Notes under the pieces: generated by a model
Databases searched by the model: none
Told to the model about the DNA's origin: nothing
What the model saw: only the letters and a program-made list of their open reading frames with translations
Position numbers and translations under genes: made by a program
Shown: positions 31,769 to 37,866 of the stretch, one piece after another
Numbering within the stretch: position 1 is the first letter of the stretch
Layout of the letters: every line of letters begins with the position of its first letter
From: Acidobacteriota bacterium
Lineage (GTDB): Bacteria > Acidobacteriota > Terriglobia > Acidiferrales > UBA7541
Assembly: GCA_013286165.1 (NCBI GenBank)
Contig: JABDGF010000009.1
Span: 1-54,772, forward strand
DNA: 54,772 bases
Direction of reading: 5' to 3'

Positions 31769-32476
31769 CTACTTCACGTCGGGTAGAAGCTGCTGCAAGG
31801 TGTCAGCTACGCCTTTGGGCTTGAAGCCGAAGGGGCCGGGGCCGGCTTTGTAGGCGATTTTGCCGTCTTTATCGATGACGTAGAGGCGGTCGGGCCAGCC
31901 GGTGTAGTCGCGCTCGGTGGTGTTCTGGAAATTATCGAGCACGGCTGGAAATTTGATGCCGAGCTTCACGACGCAAAGCTTGCCCATCTCATTGCGCTCG
32001 TCCTGATTTTTCGGCGCGGCGAAAATTACATGATCGTCAATATTGTCGGGATCCTGCCAAACGTCCGTGGTGTGCGCTTCGCGAATGTAAACCGCGTAGA
32101 ACGCAACCTGGTCCTTATACTTCGCGTACAGATCGTTGAGGGCGGGAACCTCCCGCCGGAATGGCGGTCAAGTGTAACTGCCGAAGACGAGCACGACGGG
32201 TTTCTGTCCACGGAAGGAAGAAAGCTTGACGTTGCCCTGGTGGTCGATCGTCTCGAGCGAAAAATCCGGTGCCATGTCGCCGACGTTGTGCGAGCCGGCG
32301 CGCGCAACTTTCCAGAGCGGCTTGAACGGAAACACGACGAACGCGGGCCAGGGAACGTAACGCATAACACTGGCGAAGCGGTCCGGCCCTGAAAGCATCA
32401 GGCCGAAGAATGCTGCGGTAAGGACACCGTACACGACGACGAAAACGACGAGGCCCTTAAGAATTTTCTTCACCAT
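31769..32476 (-). CDS. Deiodinase-like thioredoxin-fold selenoprotein (TGA = Sec at residue 103)
   Basis: A 235-residue frame interrupted only by one TGA (32168-32170). A single N-terminal TM anchor (about 5-27) precedes a redoxin domain starting near MAPDFSLETIDHQGNVKLSS. The active-site line reads VVLVFGSYT-U-PPFRREV, matching the FGSCT-U-PPF motif of iodothyronine deiodinases, with TGA exactly at selenocysteine. Past the TGA the same frame continues for 132 residues with deiodinase-like YIREAH (Glu133, His135) and the thioredoxin-fold end RLYVIDKDGKIAYKAGPGPFG. A SECIS-like hairpin follows the TGA. It starts 3 nt after the AhpD-like gene, so the two are co-translated. A peroxidase, reductase or dehalogenase role is possible. 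An ordinary gene caller would split it or call it a pseudogene. Confidence 0.85.
32141..32167 (-). promoter_or_regulatory. Candidate bacterial SECIS element
   Basis: In the mRNA sense, 10 nt after the TGA, GGCGGGA pairs with TCCCGCC around a GGU loop (hairpin 32141-32157). The GGU falls at nucleotides 18-20 after the UGA. This matches the size and loop of known bacterial SECIS hairpins bound by SelB (E. coli fdhF has GGU at about the same distance, from memory). Confidence 0.75.
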
Positions 32477-32479
32477 GCG

Positions 32480-33094
32480 CTATTTGCGATACCCGTGATG
32501 CGCGACGAGCTTGCCGCGCGAGCGATGCCCTTCATCCGAAACGGCGGGAACACCTGAAGCCGTGATCCAGCGATTGTAAAAATTGAACAAAGCACAGACC
32601 GTAATTGTGTAGAAAATCGCGTCGTCGGTCCATCCCAAATCGCGCAAATGTTGCGAATCACCGGCGGTGATGGTGGGCAGCGCGAGCGTGACTTTCGCGA
32701 CGAAGCGGAGCAGCGCTTTTTCTTTGTCGGGGAGGTCGGAGGAATTCGGATCGTTCAAGACGCGGCGGACGAAATCTTCGTCGCCGTAGAGTTCACCGGC
32801 GATCGCGGTGTGGGACTTCATGCAGAACTCGCAGTCATTGAGGCGCGAGGTGTAAGCGGCGATGAGCTCGCGGAGCTTGGGCTCGATGGGAGCGGCGTCA
32901 TGCATGGCGGAGTGGGTGAAGTTCGCCAGGTGCTCGCTCATTTCGGGGCGAAACGCGAGCAGGTGCCAGATTTTCCAATACTCGCCGCCGGATTTCTGCG
33001 CGTTGTGAATGAGGTCTGCGTACGCGCTGGGCTGAGGGTTCTGTTCGACGCCCGGCAGATGCATGGGCTTCATGGCTTGCGAGGTGGTGGGCAT
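32480..33094 (-). CDS. AhpD-like alkylhydroperoxidase / CMD-family protein
   Basis: A 204-residue all-helical protein of the carboxymuconolactone decarboxylase/AhpD superfamily. The AhpD signature E-x11-C-x2-C-x3-H is complete: Glu76, Cys88, Cys91, His95 (CEFCMKSH), so it is likely a thiol-disulfide peroxidase or peroxide-stress reductant. The ATG at 33094 has AAGGA 7 nt upstream; a TTG-type earlier start is less likely. Its stop lies 3 nt before the deiodinase-like start codon, suggesting one redox operon in which a Cys pair and a selenocysteine enzyme may exchange electrons (inference). Confidence 0.88.
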   Translation of the reverse strand: MPTTSQAMKPMHLPGVEQNPQPSAYADLIHNAQKSGGEYWKIWHLLAFRPEMSEHLANFTHSAMHDAAPIEPKLRELIAAYTSRLNDCEFCMKSHTAIAGELYGDEDFVRRVLNDPNSSDLPDKEKALLRFVAKVTLALPTITAGDSQHLRDLGWTDDAIFYTITVCALFNFYNRWITASGVPAVSDEGHRSRGKLVAHHGYRK

Positions 33095-33260
33095 GCGTTT
33101 TTCCTTCGAGAGCAAACTGCCAGTGATTACAGACGTTATAACGCGGACGAATCACAGTCTCTAGTATTTTCCGATTATTGCGGCGGGGCGCGTCCCGTTA
33201 GAAATTACTGCCAATCTCCAAAGCTATGTCTTTGCCACAGTGAAACCTAGGAGCGTATTG

Positions 33261-36200
33261 ATGACGCGAGTTTTTGCTTTCCGCTGCATATTTGTTGCGA
33301 TTTTGTGCGTTTTTGCGGGGATTTCCGCGAAGGCGCAGGCGCCGACGGGCACGATCAACGGAGGCGTGACGGACCCTGGCGGCGCGGTGGTGACCGGCGC
33401 GAATGTGACCGCGACGAACCAGACGACCACAGTGGCGCGCACGACGGTGACGAACTCCGACGGCCTTTACAACTTTCCTGACCTGCCGGCCGGACTGTAC
33501 ACGGTGACGATCAAGGCGACCGGCTTCGCCGAGACGGAATTCAAGGATGTGCAGCTGCTGGTGGGACGCGTGGTGACGGTGGACGCGCAGCTGAAGGTGG
33601 CATCGGCGAACGCGAGCGTGACGGTTGGCGACGCTATCGACACGGTGGACCTGACGACGAATACGATTCAGGGCCAGGTGACCTCGACGACGATTCAGAG
33701 CATCCCGCTCAACGGCAGAAACTTCCTGGAGCTGGCGTATCTGGTGCCGGGCAACCGGCCGGCGCCAAATTTCGACCCGACGAAGACGAACACGCTGGAA
33801 GTAAGTTCGGACGGAAGCGTGGGCCGCGGCGGAAACATCACGGTGGACGGCGGCGACAACAACGACGACGTGGTGGGCGGAACGCTCTCGAACTTCCCGC
33901 AGGATTCGATCGCGGAATTCCAGATCGCGACGGCGCAATTTTCGGCGGAAGCAGGACGCTCCGGAACGAGCATCATCAACATTTTAACGAAGTCCGGTAC
34001 GAACGGCTTTCACGGATCGCTTTTCGACTACGAGCGCAACCGGCATCTAGATGCGCAACCGGGCACACTTTCGGCCGGACAGCCGAAGGCGCCGTTTGAC
34101 CGCGAACAGTTCGGTGGATCGCTGGGCGGACCTTTCAAGGCGAACAAAGCGTGGTGGTTTGGATCGGCGGAATACCGCAATCAGAATGGCGCAGTGGAAA
34201 CGGCCGAGCGCGATTTCACCACAGACTCGATTTTGAATACTTTCGCGCCGGCGCCGTTGCGCGATGCGCTGGTATCTTCGCGCGTGGATTTCCAACTGAC
34301 GCCGCACGACACATTGATGGGCCGGTACTCGTTCAATCGCTCGACGGATACGGCGGGAGCGTCTCCGGCGAGCGCGACGCCTTTCATATCAGATACGGAG
34401 CGGCAGAACTCGCTGAACCGGTTCAACACGGCGGTTGCCGGCTGGACGCGGACGATTTCGTCGAACAAAGTGAACAACCTCCTTTTCACGTTCAACACAT
34501 TCCTGAACAGCATTCCGGAATTTCCGGACAGCTCGCCGACGACGAACCCTCCGGGACTGGCTGCGACGAATGAATTGCTGTTTCCGGATCTCGCGGACGG
34601 CGTGAACTTCAACGTGCCGCAGAGCACGCATCTGAACCAGGCGGAATTGCAGGACACGTTTACGTGGTCGCTCGGCAAACACACGCTGCACCTGGGCGGG
34701 CAATATGAATATTCGCGCGCGTTTGGCGAGATCAACGTGTTTGGCAGCGGCAGCGTGATTTTGACGTCGGATTTCGGCTTCGCGAATTTGAGTGGTACCG
34801 ATGGACCTGGCGGACCGACGGACCTGGATATTCCGATTGCGGTGGCGATTCAGAGTGCGGCGCCGGTGCAACCGGTACCGATTCCGAAAATTTCGAACAG
34901 CTACATTTCCTTTTTCGCGCAGGACGATTGGCGCGTGACCCGGAAACTCACGTTGAATCTCGGTTTGCGCTGGGATTTCGACACGGATGCGACGGGCACC
35001 AGCGGCGCATACGGCCCTTGCCCGAATTTGACCGAGCAACCGACCAATCCGTGCGTGTGGATGGCGAACGTGATCGACCTGCACCACCATCCGGACAAGA
35101 AGAATTTCGGGCCGCGAATCGGATTCGCGTACGACCCGTTTGGACAGGGCAAGACGGTGATCCGGGGCGGATACGGAATTTTCTACGACCGGATTGTGTT
35201 TGAAGTGCCGGGATACGAACGCGTGCAAGACGATCGCGCGTTGACGATCAATCAGTATGCAGGTTCATCGTGCACTTTCCCTGGCGACCCCGCCCCGCCG
35301 GATCTGAACACGTGCTTCGCGCCGATTCCGGGCGTGCAGTTTGCACCGGGCAGCCCGACGCTGGCGAATCCGTTCAGCGGACCGCGGCAGCCGGGCGGCG
35401 TGGGAATTATCGTGGTGGATAAGAACACGCACCATCCGATGTTTCAGCAGTGGTCGATCGGATTCCAGCAGCAGTTGGGATCGGACTGGACGCTAAGCGC
35501 CGATGGACTCTACCTTTTCGGCCAGCGGATGCTGATGGCGCAATATCTGCGGAGCGCGGGCGGTTCCACTTCGCCGTACATCGCGTGCCCGGGCAGCAAC
35601 ATTCCTTGCACGGTGACCGATCCGCTGACGGGAATTTCGGATCAGGTGACGGTGGCTACGTCGAACGGACACTCGTGGTACACGGGCTTGCTGGTGAACC
35701 TGCAGCACAGGCCAGTGAAGCTCGGAAAGTTCACCTACCTTTTCAACGCGAGCTACACGCTTTCGAAGACGCTGGACTACTCGGATGACGATCAGGTTCC
35801 CTCGTACACGACCGTTGAGAACGTGAACTTGATCGAAGGAACCGTGGGACCGCAGACGGAGAAGGGCTACGCGGCGAGCGACGAACGCCACCGGTTGACG
35901 GCGTATGGACAGATTCAGATGCCGTGGGGAATGTCGCTCTCGCCGTTGTACACATTTGGATCGGGAGTGCCGGCGGATCCGATCCTGCCGGATTTGAACC
36001 TGAATGGCCAGTCGCTTCCTGCACGCTTGCCGATCCTAGGACGCAATTCGCTGGGACGCAGCGTGAAGAACAGCAACCAGCTGAACACGATCATCAACGA
36101 ATGGAACGCACTGCCGGCGTGCCCGGCACCGGCTCCGTGCAACGCGGGTGGACCGCTGCAAGATGTGCCGTCGAATATCAACTTCAGCAGCCCGTTTAAT

Positions 36201-36470
36201 TCGCTGGACCTGCGATTCATGAAAGACTTCGCATTCGCTGAGCGCTACCACCTGCAGCTGATCGCGGAGTCGTTCAACTTGTTCAACAGCTTGAACGTTC
36301 GCGGCTTCTACAACACAAGCTACTCGGGCCGCAACACTTCGTTGCTGCCGCAGGGGACGAACCCGGGAAACATCGATCCGGGTTTCTGGCAGCCGGCGAG
36401 CACAGCGGGAGGGTTCTTCGGGACAGGCGGGCCACGCGCGTTCCAGTTTGCGATACGATTTACTTTCTAA
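33261..36470 (+). CDS. TonB-dependent receptor, Oar-like
   Basis: A 1069-residue outer-membrane receptor. It has a signal peptide (CIFVAILCVFAGISAKAQ), a carboxypeptidase-regulatory-like domain (about 25-105, GTINGGVTDPGGAVVTGANV), a plug with PLNGRNFLELAYLVPG and ITVDGGDNNDD, and a barrel ending in FQFAIRFTF. A GTG seven codons earlier is also in frame, but the ATG at 33261 has TAGGAG at 8-nt spacing and begins the signal peptide. It is divergent from the AhpD/selenoprotein operon and followed on its own strand by two AhpD-like genes 62 nt away, so it may belong to the same redox-related locus. Confidence 0.92.
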   Translation: MTRVFAFRCIFVAILCVFAGISAKAQAPTGTINGGVTDPGGAVVTGANVTATNQTTTVARTTVTNSDGLYNFPDLPAGLYTVTIKATGFAETEFKDVQLLVGRVVTVDAQLKVASANASVTVGDAIDTVDLTTNTIQGQVTSTTIQSIPLNGRNFLELAYLVPGNRPAPNFDPTKTNTLEVSSDGSVGRGGNITVDGGDNNDDVVGGTLSNFPQDSIAEFQIATAQFSAEAGRSGTSIINILTKSGTNGFHGSLFDYERNRHLDAQPGTLSAGQPKAPFDREQFGGSLGGPFKANKAWWFGSAEYRNQNGAVETAERDFTTDSILNTFAPAPLRDALVSSRVDFQLTPHDTLMGRYSFNRSTDTAGASPASATPFISDTERQNSLNRFNTAVAGWTRTISSNKVNNLLFTFNTFLNSIPEFPDSSPTTNPPGLAATNELLFPDLADGVNFNVPQSTHLNQAELQDTFTWSLGKHTLHLGGQYEYSRAFGEINVFGSGSVILTSDFGFANLSGTDGPGGPTDLDIPIAVAIQSAAPVQPVPIPKISNSYISFFAQDDWRVTRKLTLNLGLRWDFDTDATGTSGAYGPCPNLTEQPTNPCVWMANVIDLHHHPDKKNFGPRIGFAYDPFGQGKTVIRGGYGIFYDRIVFEVPGYERVQDDRALTINQYAGSSCTFPGDPAPPDLNTCFAPIPGVQFAPGSPTLANPFSGPRQPGGVGIIVVDKNTHHPMFQQWSIGFQQQLGSDWTLSADGLYLFGQRMLMAQYLRSAGGSTSPYIACPGSNIPCTVTDPLTGISDQVTVATSNGHSWYTGLLVNLQHRPVKLGKFTYLFNASYTLSKTLDYSDDDQVPSYTTVENVNLIEGTVGPQTEKGYAASDERHRLTAYGQIQMPWGMSLSPLYTFGSGVPADPILPDLNLNGQSLPARLPILGRNSLGRSVKNSNQLNTIINEWNALPACPAPAPCNAGGPLQDVPSNINFSSPFNSLDLRFMKDFAFAERYHLQLIAESFNLFNSLNVRGFYNTSYSGRNTSLLPQGTNPGNIDPGFWQPASTAGGFFGTGGPRAFQFAIRFTF

Positions 36471-36532: not shown

Positions 36533-37108
36533 ATGGCGCACATCAAATTGGAAGAGGGCGTACCGGGAATTCGCGGACCGATGGTGTTCAGCCCGGAGAC
36601 GACGAAGCCGATGAGAGAGTTCGTCGACGTGCTGCTCCGCGGACCGCATTCGACGTTGACGGCCGCGGAGCGGGAGATGATTGCGACGTATGTATCGTCC
36701 GAGAACGACTGCTACTACTGCCAGCATTCGCACGGGGCGGCAGCCGCCGAGCACTTGAACGGAAATTACGAGCTGATCGATCAAATCAAGCGCGATTACG
36801 CGACCGCGCCGGTGAGCGAGAAGCTCAAGGCGCTGTTTGCGGTGGCGAAGAAGGTGCAGACCGGCGGGAAGAACGTGACGACGGCGGATGTGGAAGCGGC
36901 GCGCGCGAAGGGCGCGACGGATCGTGATATTCACGATACGGTGCTGATTGCGGCGGCGTTCTGCATGTTTAACCGGTACGTGGATGGGCTGGCGACGTGG
37001 CAGCCGGAAGATCCCGAGATGTACAAGACGATGGGGAAAAGGCTTGCGACGACGGGATATTTGACGACGGGTTGGGAGCGGCCGGTGGCGAAGGCGGAAG
37101 CGAAGTAA
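36533..37108 (+). CDS. AhpD-like CMD-family protein, paralogue 1
   Basis: A 191-residue carboxymuconolactone decarboxylase-superfamily protein with the full AhpD peroxidase signature: Glu48, Cys60, Cys63, His67 (CYYCQHSHG). The C-terminal segment DTVLIAAAFCMFNRYVDGLAT is typical of the peroxidase-related branch. AAGGAG lies 6 nt before the ATG. It is 62 nt after the receptor and is followed by a close paralogue, so the three probably share a transcript. The likely role is thiol-based peroxide or disulfide chemistry in the cytosol; the electron donor is unknown. Confidence 0.9.
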   Translation: MAHIKLEEGVPGIRGPMVFSPETTKPMREFVDVLLRGPHSTLTAAEREMIATYVSSENDCYYCQHSHGAAAAEHLNGNYELIDQIKRDYATAPVSEKLKALFAVAKKVQTGGKNVTTADVEAARAKGATDRDIHDTVLIAAAFCMFNRYVDGLATWQPEDPEMYKTMGKRLATTGYLTTGWERPVAKAEAK

Positions 37109-37260: not shown

Positions 37261-37299
37261 AGCGAAGTAAACTTGCCGCGAGCATTTGGAGGCGTAGCG

Positions 37300-37866
37300 A
37301 TGGCGCATATTAATTTGCCGGAAGGGATTCCTGGAATTTTGGGGCCGATGGCGTTCAGCCCGGAGACGGCGGTGCCGCTGAATGCGCTGGCGGAGGTGCT
37401 GCTGCGCGCGCCGAATTCCCTTTCGCAGGGCGACCGCGAAATGATCGCGGCGTATGTGTCGTCGCAGAACGACTGTTTCTTCTGCCAGTCCGTGCACGGA
37501 GCGGCGGCGGCGCACTACTGGGGCGACAAAGAAGATCTGGTGAGGGATTTGAAGCGCGATTTCGAATCGGGACCGGTGTCACCGAAGCTGAAGGCGCTAC
37601 TGGCGATCGCGGGCAAAGTGCAGAAGGGCGGGAAGAACGTGACGGCGGCGGACGTGGAGCGCGCGCGGAAAGAAGGCGCGACGGACAAAGAAATTCACGA
37701 CACGGTGTTGATCGCGGCGGCGTTTTGCATGTTCAACCGCTACGTGGATGGCCTCGCTACCTTTGCGCCGACCGATCCCGAGCGCTACCGCGAGAGCGGC
37801 AAGCGAATCGCGGCCGAAGGCTACATCCACTCCACCGATCACCTGCCGAAGCTCGCGCACGGATAG
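37300..37866 (+). CDS. AhpD-like CMD-family protein, paralogue 2
   Basis: A 188-residue protein clearly duplicated from its upstream neighbour: the two share MAHI-L-EG-PGI-GPM-FSPET and DTVLIAAAFCMFNRYVDGLAT. The AhpD signature is complete with Glu47, Cys59, Cys62 and His66 (CFFCQSVHG). The ATG at 37300 is chosen because GGAGG lies 7 nt upstream; an in-frame codon nine residues earlier lacks this. Function is presumably the same class of thiol peroxidase/disulfide reductase, perhaps with a different partner. Confidence 0.9.
   Translation: MAHINLPEGIPGILGPMAFSPETAVPLNALAEVLLRAPNSLSQGDREMIAAYVSSQNDCFFCQSVHGAAAAHYWGDKEDLVRDLKRDFESGPVSPKLKALLAIAGKVQKGGKNVTAADVERARKEGATDKEIHDTVLIAAAFCMFNRYVDGLATFAPTDPERYRESGKRIAAEGYIHSTDHLPKLAHG

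Follow-up and report, generated by a model that had tools for sequence, protein, structure and literature searches.

Deiodinase-like selenoproteins have been described from both animals and bacteria. In Dio2, the proton relay consists of Ser127, Thr129, Tyr157, Glu160, His162 and His182, with Trp167 near His162 (PMC11592359). In DIO1, Cys124, two residues before the selenocysteine (Sec), is required for re-reduction by glutathione (PMC9141512). Sec- and Cys-containing deiodinase-like proteins were reported from Sargasso Sea bacteria in 2005, with a suggested redox function different from that of the animal deiodinases, and a CMD selenoprotein was listed in the same work (PMC1088965). Reviews list the bacterial family with the motif UxxC (PMC9312934, PMC13188914), and one of them, from 2026, describes the functions of such selenoproteins as largely unclear (PMC13188914). 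For Acidobacteria, four selenoproteins in three families were given in PMC1794560, and deiodinase is not mentioned in its text. A redoxin adjoining an AhpD-like protein, both with Sec, is known from a single read pair, and the redoxin there is not deiodinase-like. The kind of gene presented here has been in print since 2005 (PMC1088965), and the preliminary description of this DNA had already noted that such proteins are reported from bacteria; the present gene adds a member.

The window, meaning the whole stretch of 54,772 nucleotides that was analysed, carries this gene on the minus strand (32476-31769). It starts with ATG at 32476, spans 235 codons (32476-31772) with one TGA read through, and ends in TAG (31771-31769). 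The preliminary description had named no strand; translation of the plus strand of 31769-32476 gave no redoxin. Translation of the minus strand confirmed its main observation, namely that a single TGA separates two frames of the same phase, which give a 235-residue redoxin when joined, with 132 residues downstream of the TGA. This TGA is codon 103 (32170-32168, minus strand), and a codon survey of 72 loci is the basis for proposing it as a Sec codon. From the N-terminus, the read-through product has a hydrophobic segment, then a linker, then the redoxin domain, in which FGSYT-U-PPF is followed by YIREAH, as had been described.

The protein had been called deiodinase-like, and both profile and structure searches agreed. 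PF00837 (T4_deiodinase) was matched with 97.2 bits (cut-off 27). The same profile was matched, at E values up to 0.001, by all 54 rows of our protein alignment, which was chosen to limit length and holds 27 of the 30 loci of the Sec-type family A, 15 of the 22 of the Sec-type family B, and 12 of 13 Cys homologues (L132 omitted). By sequence, the best PDB matches were mouse Dio3 (6.8e-19) and Dio2 (3.9e-17), then ResA (2.3e-8). An AlphaFold2 model built from the 54 aligned sequences had a mean pLDDT of 96.8, and Foldseek ranked Dio2 (3.1e-15) and Dio3 (3.7e-14) first and second in the PDB, followed by ResA-type chains (5.1e-11). Core identity to Dio2/Dio3 averaged 40%/39% for family B, 32%/36% for family A and 30%/31% for the Cys rows. 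The NCBIfam model NF038285 (deiodinase_rel) scored 192.6 bits, below its cut-off of 250, with 165 residues matching only positions 177-341 of the 347 in the profile. PF00578 (AhpC-TSA) reached 58.1 bits (cut-off 26). The active-site motif of peroxiredoxins (AhpC/TSA) is TxxC; despite the PF00578 match, the window protein has S-Y-T-U instead.

The N-terminal membrane anchor of the preliminary description is present as a predicted feature. Hydrophobicity peaked in a 19-residue stretch from residue 9, with a scripted mean hydropathy of 2.51. From hydropathy and charge, the anchor was placed at about residues 9-27 (32396..32452, minus strand), within a helix of residues 2-28 in the model. The residues preceding the anchor carried more positive charge than those following it in 25/27 family A and 11/15 family B rows, which suggests a periplasmic location of the enzyme domain. 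The window protein thus shares with animal Dio1-3 the fold, the Sec site, S-x-T-U-P-P-F, EAH, the Trp and the N-terminal anchor. Like the described bacterial family (PF00837; PMC1088965), it falls into this Pfam family, shows Sec/Cys exchange at the site and has a putative bacterial SECIS; unlike the UxxC given in the reviews, it has UPPF, in a short, membrane-anchored form that adjoins a CMD gene in some genomes. Two Cys-type relatives viewed in full (L125:2005-3702(-) and L122:1623-3269(-)) carried the deiodinase-like domain at the C-terminal end of a TPR-repeat protein.

We consider it highly probable that the gene encodes an iodothyronine-deiodinase-family redox enzyme in which the TGA is decoded as Sec. 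The preliminary description had proposed this translation, and it is supported by TGA/Cys exchange among relatives, by a covarying hairpin, and by tRNA-Sec and selD in the organism's own genome. At the homologous codon, the 72 related loci had TGA in 55 cases and TGC/TGT in 13, one of the latter (L132, counted here and in the hairpin comparison) being the first residue of a weak edge alignment and possibly misplaced; four loci gave no coverage. All 68 loci covering the codon therefore had TGA or Cys, which answers the alignment check proposed earlier. A search of 89 genomes of the taxonomic family returned 47 matches in 45 genomes (E <= 1e-15). Exactly one internal TGA was found in 46 of them, and the remaining match was partial, starting downstream of the site. 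From the class, 125/399 genomes matched (E <= 1e-25), most rows having one TGA; rows without stops either had Cys or were partial matches lying past the site. Extra stops occurred in G170 (four TGA), G156 (TGA, two TAG and TAA), G333 (TGA and TAA) and G398 (TAA, a partial match). From the phylum, 10/396 genomes matched (E <= 1e-40), with TGA in every one and an extra TAG in one. A large clade of bacterial deiodinase-like genes exists in this class, and it is added by the present analysis. A separate contig scan gave 11 loci, one of them a close relative with TGA and hairpin, in a Planctomycetota MAG (L016). The other ten were more general redoxins and were set aside, the aligned place being a Cys codon in eight and ACC/AGC in L022 and L025. 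Two weaker matches (L002, L003) were thioredoxin-like with Cys and were likewise rejected.

If the gene were a pseudogene or contained a sequencing error, translation would really end at the TGA, and both frames would be remnants of a Cys redoxin. Other families of the class do contain broken copies: L133 (G278), L136 (G170) and L137 (G156) have a frameshift or further stops, with TGA kept at the site. For the window gene we regard this explanation as very improbable. The codon is TGA in so many of the surveyed loci, including the complete single-contig genomes G267, G335 and G369, and constraint is kept beyond it. Compared with six orthologues, pN/pS ranged over 0.35-0.50 upstream of the TGA and 0.21-0.37 downstream, the downstream value being the lower one in 6/6 comparisons; judged from these substitution patterns, purifying selection acts on the downstream frame. 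In line with the earlier argument against a random nonsense mutation, the confinement to TGA or Cys and the lower downstream pN/pS are more than chance.

On the minus strand, the sequence that follows the TGA is CCGCCATTCC-GGCGGGA-GGT-TCCCGCC. The putative SECIS hairpin (32141..32157) starts 11 nt after the TGA and has a small, apical, G-containing loop. Its folding energy alone was ordinary (z -0.02 to -0.65 for single-sequence folding around the TGA), and no Rfam family reached its gathering score anywhere in the window. Single-sequence folding being uninformative, the case for the hairpin rests on codon invariance and on pairing in alignments of relatives, where compensatory changes support it. 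All 30 loci of family A had CGG at +13, GAG at +16 and GTT at +19, and 28/30 had CCC at +22; several codons were used for the nearby conserved residues Pro +1, Pro +4 and Phe +7. These invariant hairpin codons also speak against a pseudogene. Among 29 distinct family A sequences, the 7-bp stem was paired in 0.862 of cells, as compared to a mean of 0.586 and a maximum of 0.700 in 1000 synonymous-codon nulls, the stem having been read from the same sequences on which pairing was counted. The two outer pairs were frequently unformed.

Family B (22 loci) has different sequences, of which a single 7-bp register paired 0.789 (synonymous null mean 0.665, maximum 0.741). Two registers fit better than one, although the split into B1 and B2 was made after viewing the sequences. 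Subgroup B1 (12 loci) has a 4-bp core in the family A register, with two G-C to C-G changes. In the joint alignment of A and B1, 99.4% of cells were paired, with a covariation of 0.437 vs 0.114 when shuffled and at most 0.305 when slid. In subgroup B2 (9 distinct sequences from 10 loci), a 7-bp stem lies 4 nt further on and is 100% paired, with a loop beginning GG. Double changes occurred at 4/7 pairs of the B2 stem, and covariation was 0.571 vs 0.179 shuffled and at most 0.190 slid. The number of double-change pairs, a less telling measure, was equalled in 57/500 shuffles for B2 and in 492/500 for A and B1. Pairing at the corresponding positions of the 13 Cys homologues amounted to fractions of 0.44 and 0.275. 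By these alignments, the hairpin is absent from the Cys homologues and follows the TGA only.

The preliminary description had named the sel genes as a check, which came out in favour for tRNA-Sec and selD. The organism's genome is a MAG of 2.19 Mb, 55% complete. It contains a tRNA-Sec with a TCA anticodon (66 bits, cut-off 47) and a selD without in-frame TGA (371 bits, cut-off 125). SelA and selB were not found in this 55% complete MAG, a point that favours the pseudogene reading; both were found in relatives. A SelB match of 193.8 bits (cut-off 242.25) in a 398-residue frame was taken for EF-Tu because of the frame length, and was not counted. Across the taxonomic family, tRNA-Sec was present in 68/89 genomes and SelB in 77/89 at E <= 1e-65, above the cut-off in 75. 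Eight of the 89 had neither, and the deiodinase was found in one of these (G045, 59% complete) vs 44 of the 81 others (P = 0.027). SelA was detected in 6/10 genomes checked, the exceptions being the organism's own, G045, G083 and G084. G083 and G084 also lacked tRNA-Sec and SelB matches, and G085, of the same genus, has both. Two tRNA-Sec matches above the cut-off were seen in each of G009, G028, G043 and G046. The selD genes of G087, G028 and G029 (L075, L077, L078) contain one in-frame TGA each, so that selD may itself encode a selenoprotein there.

An open frame under a changed code says nothing of the meaning of the codon, and a suppressor, or such a code, might place Trp, Gly or Cys at the TGA. 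This alternative is extremely unlikely: Cys codons were the sole alternatives to TGA among the 72 loci, the organism's genome has a tRNA-Sec with the TCA anticodon, and the hairpin accompanies TGA only.

With position 103 read as Sec, the active site could be compared to that of Dio2. Five of the six relay residues were present, Ser127, Thr129, Tyr157, Glu160 and His162 aligning with S100, T102, Y130, E133 and H135; Dio2 His182 aligned with Pro155, so the full relay is not present. Trp167 aligned with W140. The Ser, Tyr, Glu, His and Trp were invariant in 54/54 rows, and the relay Thr was kept in all Sec rows and replaced by Ser in 7/12 Cys rows. At the place of the proximal Cys124 of DIO1, the window protein has Tyr101, and recycling should therefore differ; the Dio2 chain compared here also lacks this Cys. 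Other invariant Cys residues were found at position 168 in 27/27 family A and 12/12 Cys rows, and at position 151 in 15/15 family B rows, which have Phe at 168. From this conservation, Cys168 (families A and Cys) and Cys151 (family B) are candidate resolving residues.

The enzyme could remove halogen from natural organohalogens, as a true bacterial deiodinase or dehalogenase. The invariance of the Dio relay residues and the Trp, and the T4_deiodinase match in every aligned row, are in keeping with this. The missing counterpart of His182, Tyr101 at the place of the proximal Cys, the function unlike that of animal deiodinases suggested in PMC1088965, and the neighbours scanned, among which no halogen-related gene was recognised, count against it. 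On these sequence comparisons, we regard such an activity as possible but rather unlikely. A Sec-containing periplasmic thiol-disulfide oxidoreductase of the ResA/TlpA type would fit the membrane-anchored architecture and the rank of ResA-type structures directly after Dio. We consider it improbable, since U-P-P-F occurs in all 27 family A and 15 family B rows, without CxxC or UxxC, and NF038285 scored 192.6 bits vs 51.8 for ResA.

The gene has a CMD/AhpD-like neighbour with the motif CEFC (32480..33115, minus strand; PF02627 39.9 bits; TIGR01926 94.5 bits, cut-off 81.8), its stop codon being 3 nt upstream of the deiodinase ATG. A same-strand CMD gene with CxxC or CxxU adjoined the deiodinase gene in 9 of 94 loci, which represent 87 distinct places (seven entered twice), some with short flanks. 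It lies upstream in the window, G282, G369, G335, G379, G293, G289 and G210, and downstream in G209. In 7/9, TGA stands in place of the second motif Cys of the CMD gene (five CPYU, two CPFU), giving what look like two selenoprotein genes side by side; the window and G282 have CxxC. The TGA-containing neighbours are L118:4270-4857 and those at L119, L142, L143, L149, L160 and L081. All five CPYU genes have the identical CTTCCTGCGTGTTCAGGGAG, which can fold into a hairpin; hairpins are also seen in both CPFU genes, there with GGTC as the loop. In G267, a TGA-containing CMD gene lies about 6 kb from the deiodinase gene. A literature search that covered few subscription papers found no account of a deiodinase gene adjoining a CMD gene; this linkage, not found in print, is added here.

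Divergent from the CMD gene is a gene for an outer-membrane beta-barrel receptor-like protein (33240..36470, plus strand; PF25183, 350 bits), a possible associate. It is followed by two more CMD genes in tandem (36533-37108 and 37273-37866, plus strand), and similar tandem pairs were seen in G289, G209, G369 and G293. OMP_b-brl_4 relatives, as detected by tblastn, occurred within 1.5 kb in 12/61 loci (6 of the first 21, where the pattern was noticed, and 6 of the next 40), nine on the same strand within 250 nt. The family is abundant, with 39 to at least 44 copies in six larger genomes. Ignoring relatedness, the chance of at least 12 such neighbours was 4.5e-9 (40 copies per 5.7 Mb) or 3.9e-5 (161 per 9.5 Mb). 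Most loci had neither a CMD nor a receptor-like gene adjacent, and no other immediate neighbour recurred beyond a few loci.

We propose that SelB and tRNA-Sec would decode the TGA as Sec, directed by the hairpin starting about 11 nt downstream. The product would be a 235-residue, membrane-anchored thioredoxin-fold enzyme of the deiodinase family, its enzyme domain probably facing the periplasm. The Sec103 selenolate may attack an electrophile, either a peroxide or a carbon-halogen bond. Given the habits of the fold, we lean towards a peroxide over a halogenated substrate; the retained Dio residues leave room for dehalogenation. Recycling of the oxidised selenium would involve Cys168, which is conserved, an external thiol carrier, or both; the leading candidate for such a carrier is the CMD/AhpD-like neighbour. 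AhpD serves AhpC, and by analogy the CMD protein might act as reductant. Its coupling to the deiodinase-like enzyme is a tentative suggestion, and the CMD protein has no evident signal peptide, which counts against direct contact with a periplasmic domain.

More speculatively, and with little probability as a whole, the CMD/AhpD-like protein (CxxC or CxxU) and the anchored deiodinase-type selenoprotein, in some cases with an outer-membrane receptor alongside, might form a selenium-dependent redox module for the uptake and reductive dehalogenation of natural organohalogens, and animal deiodinases might derive from this family. Standard annotation would stop such genes at the catalytic residue, and the Sec enzymes of this clade have therefore probably been overlooked. 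With an active site near that of the animal deiodinases and a linked candidate reductant, the function of the bacterial protein becomes testable, as does the origin of the animal deiodinases.
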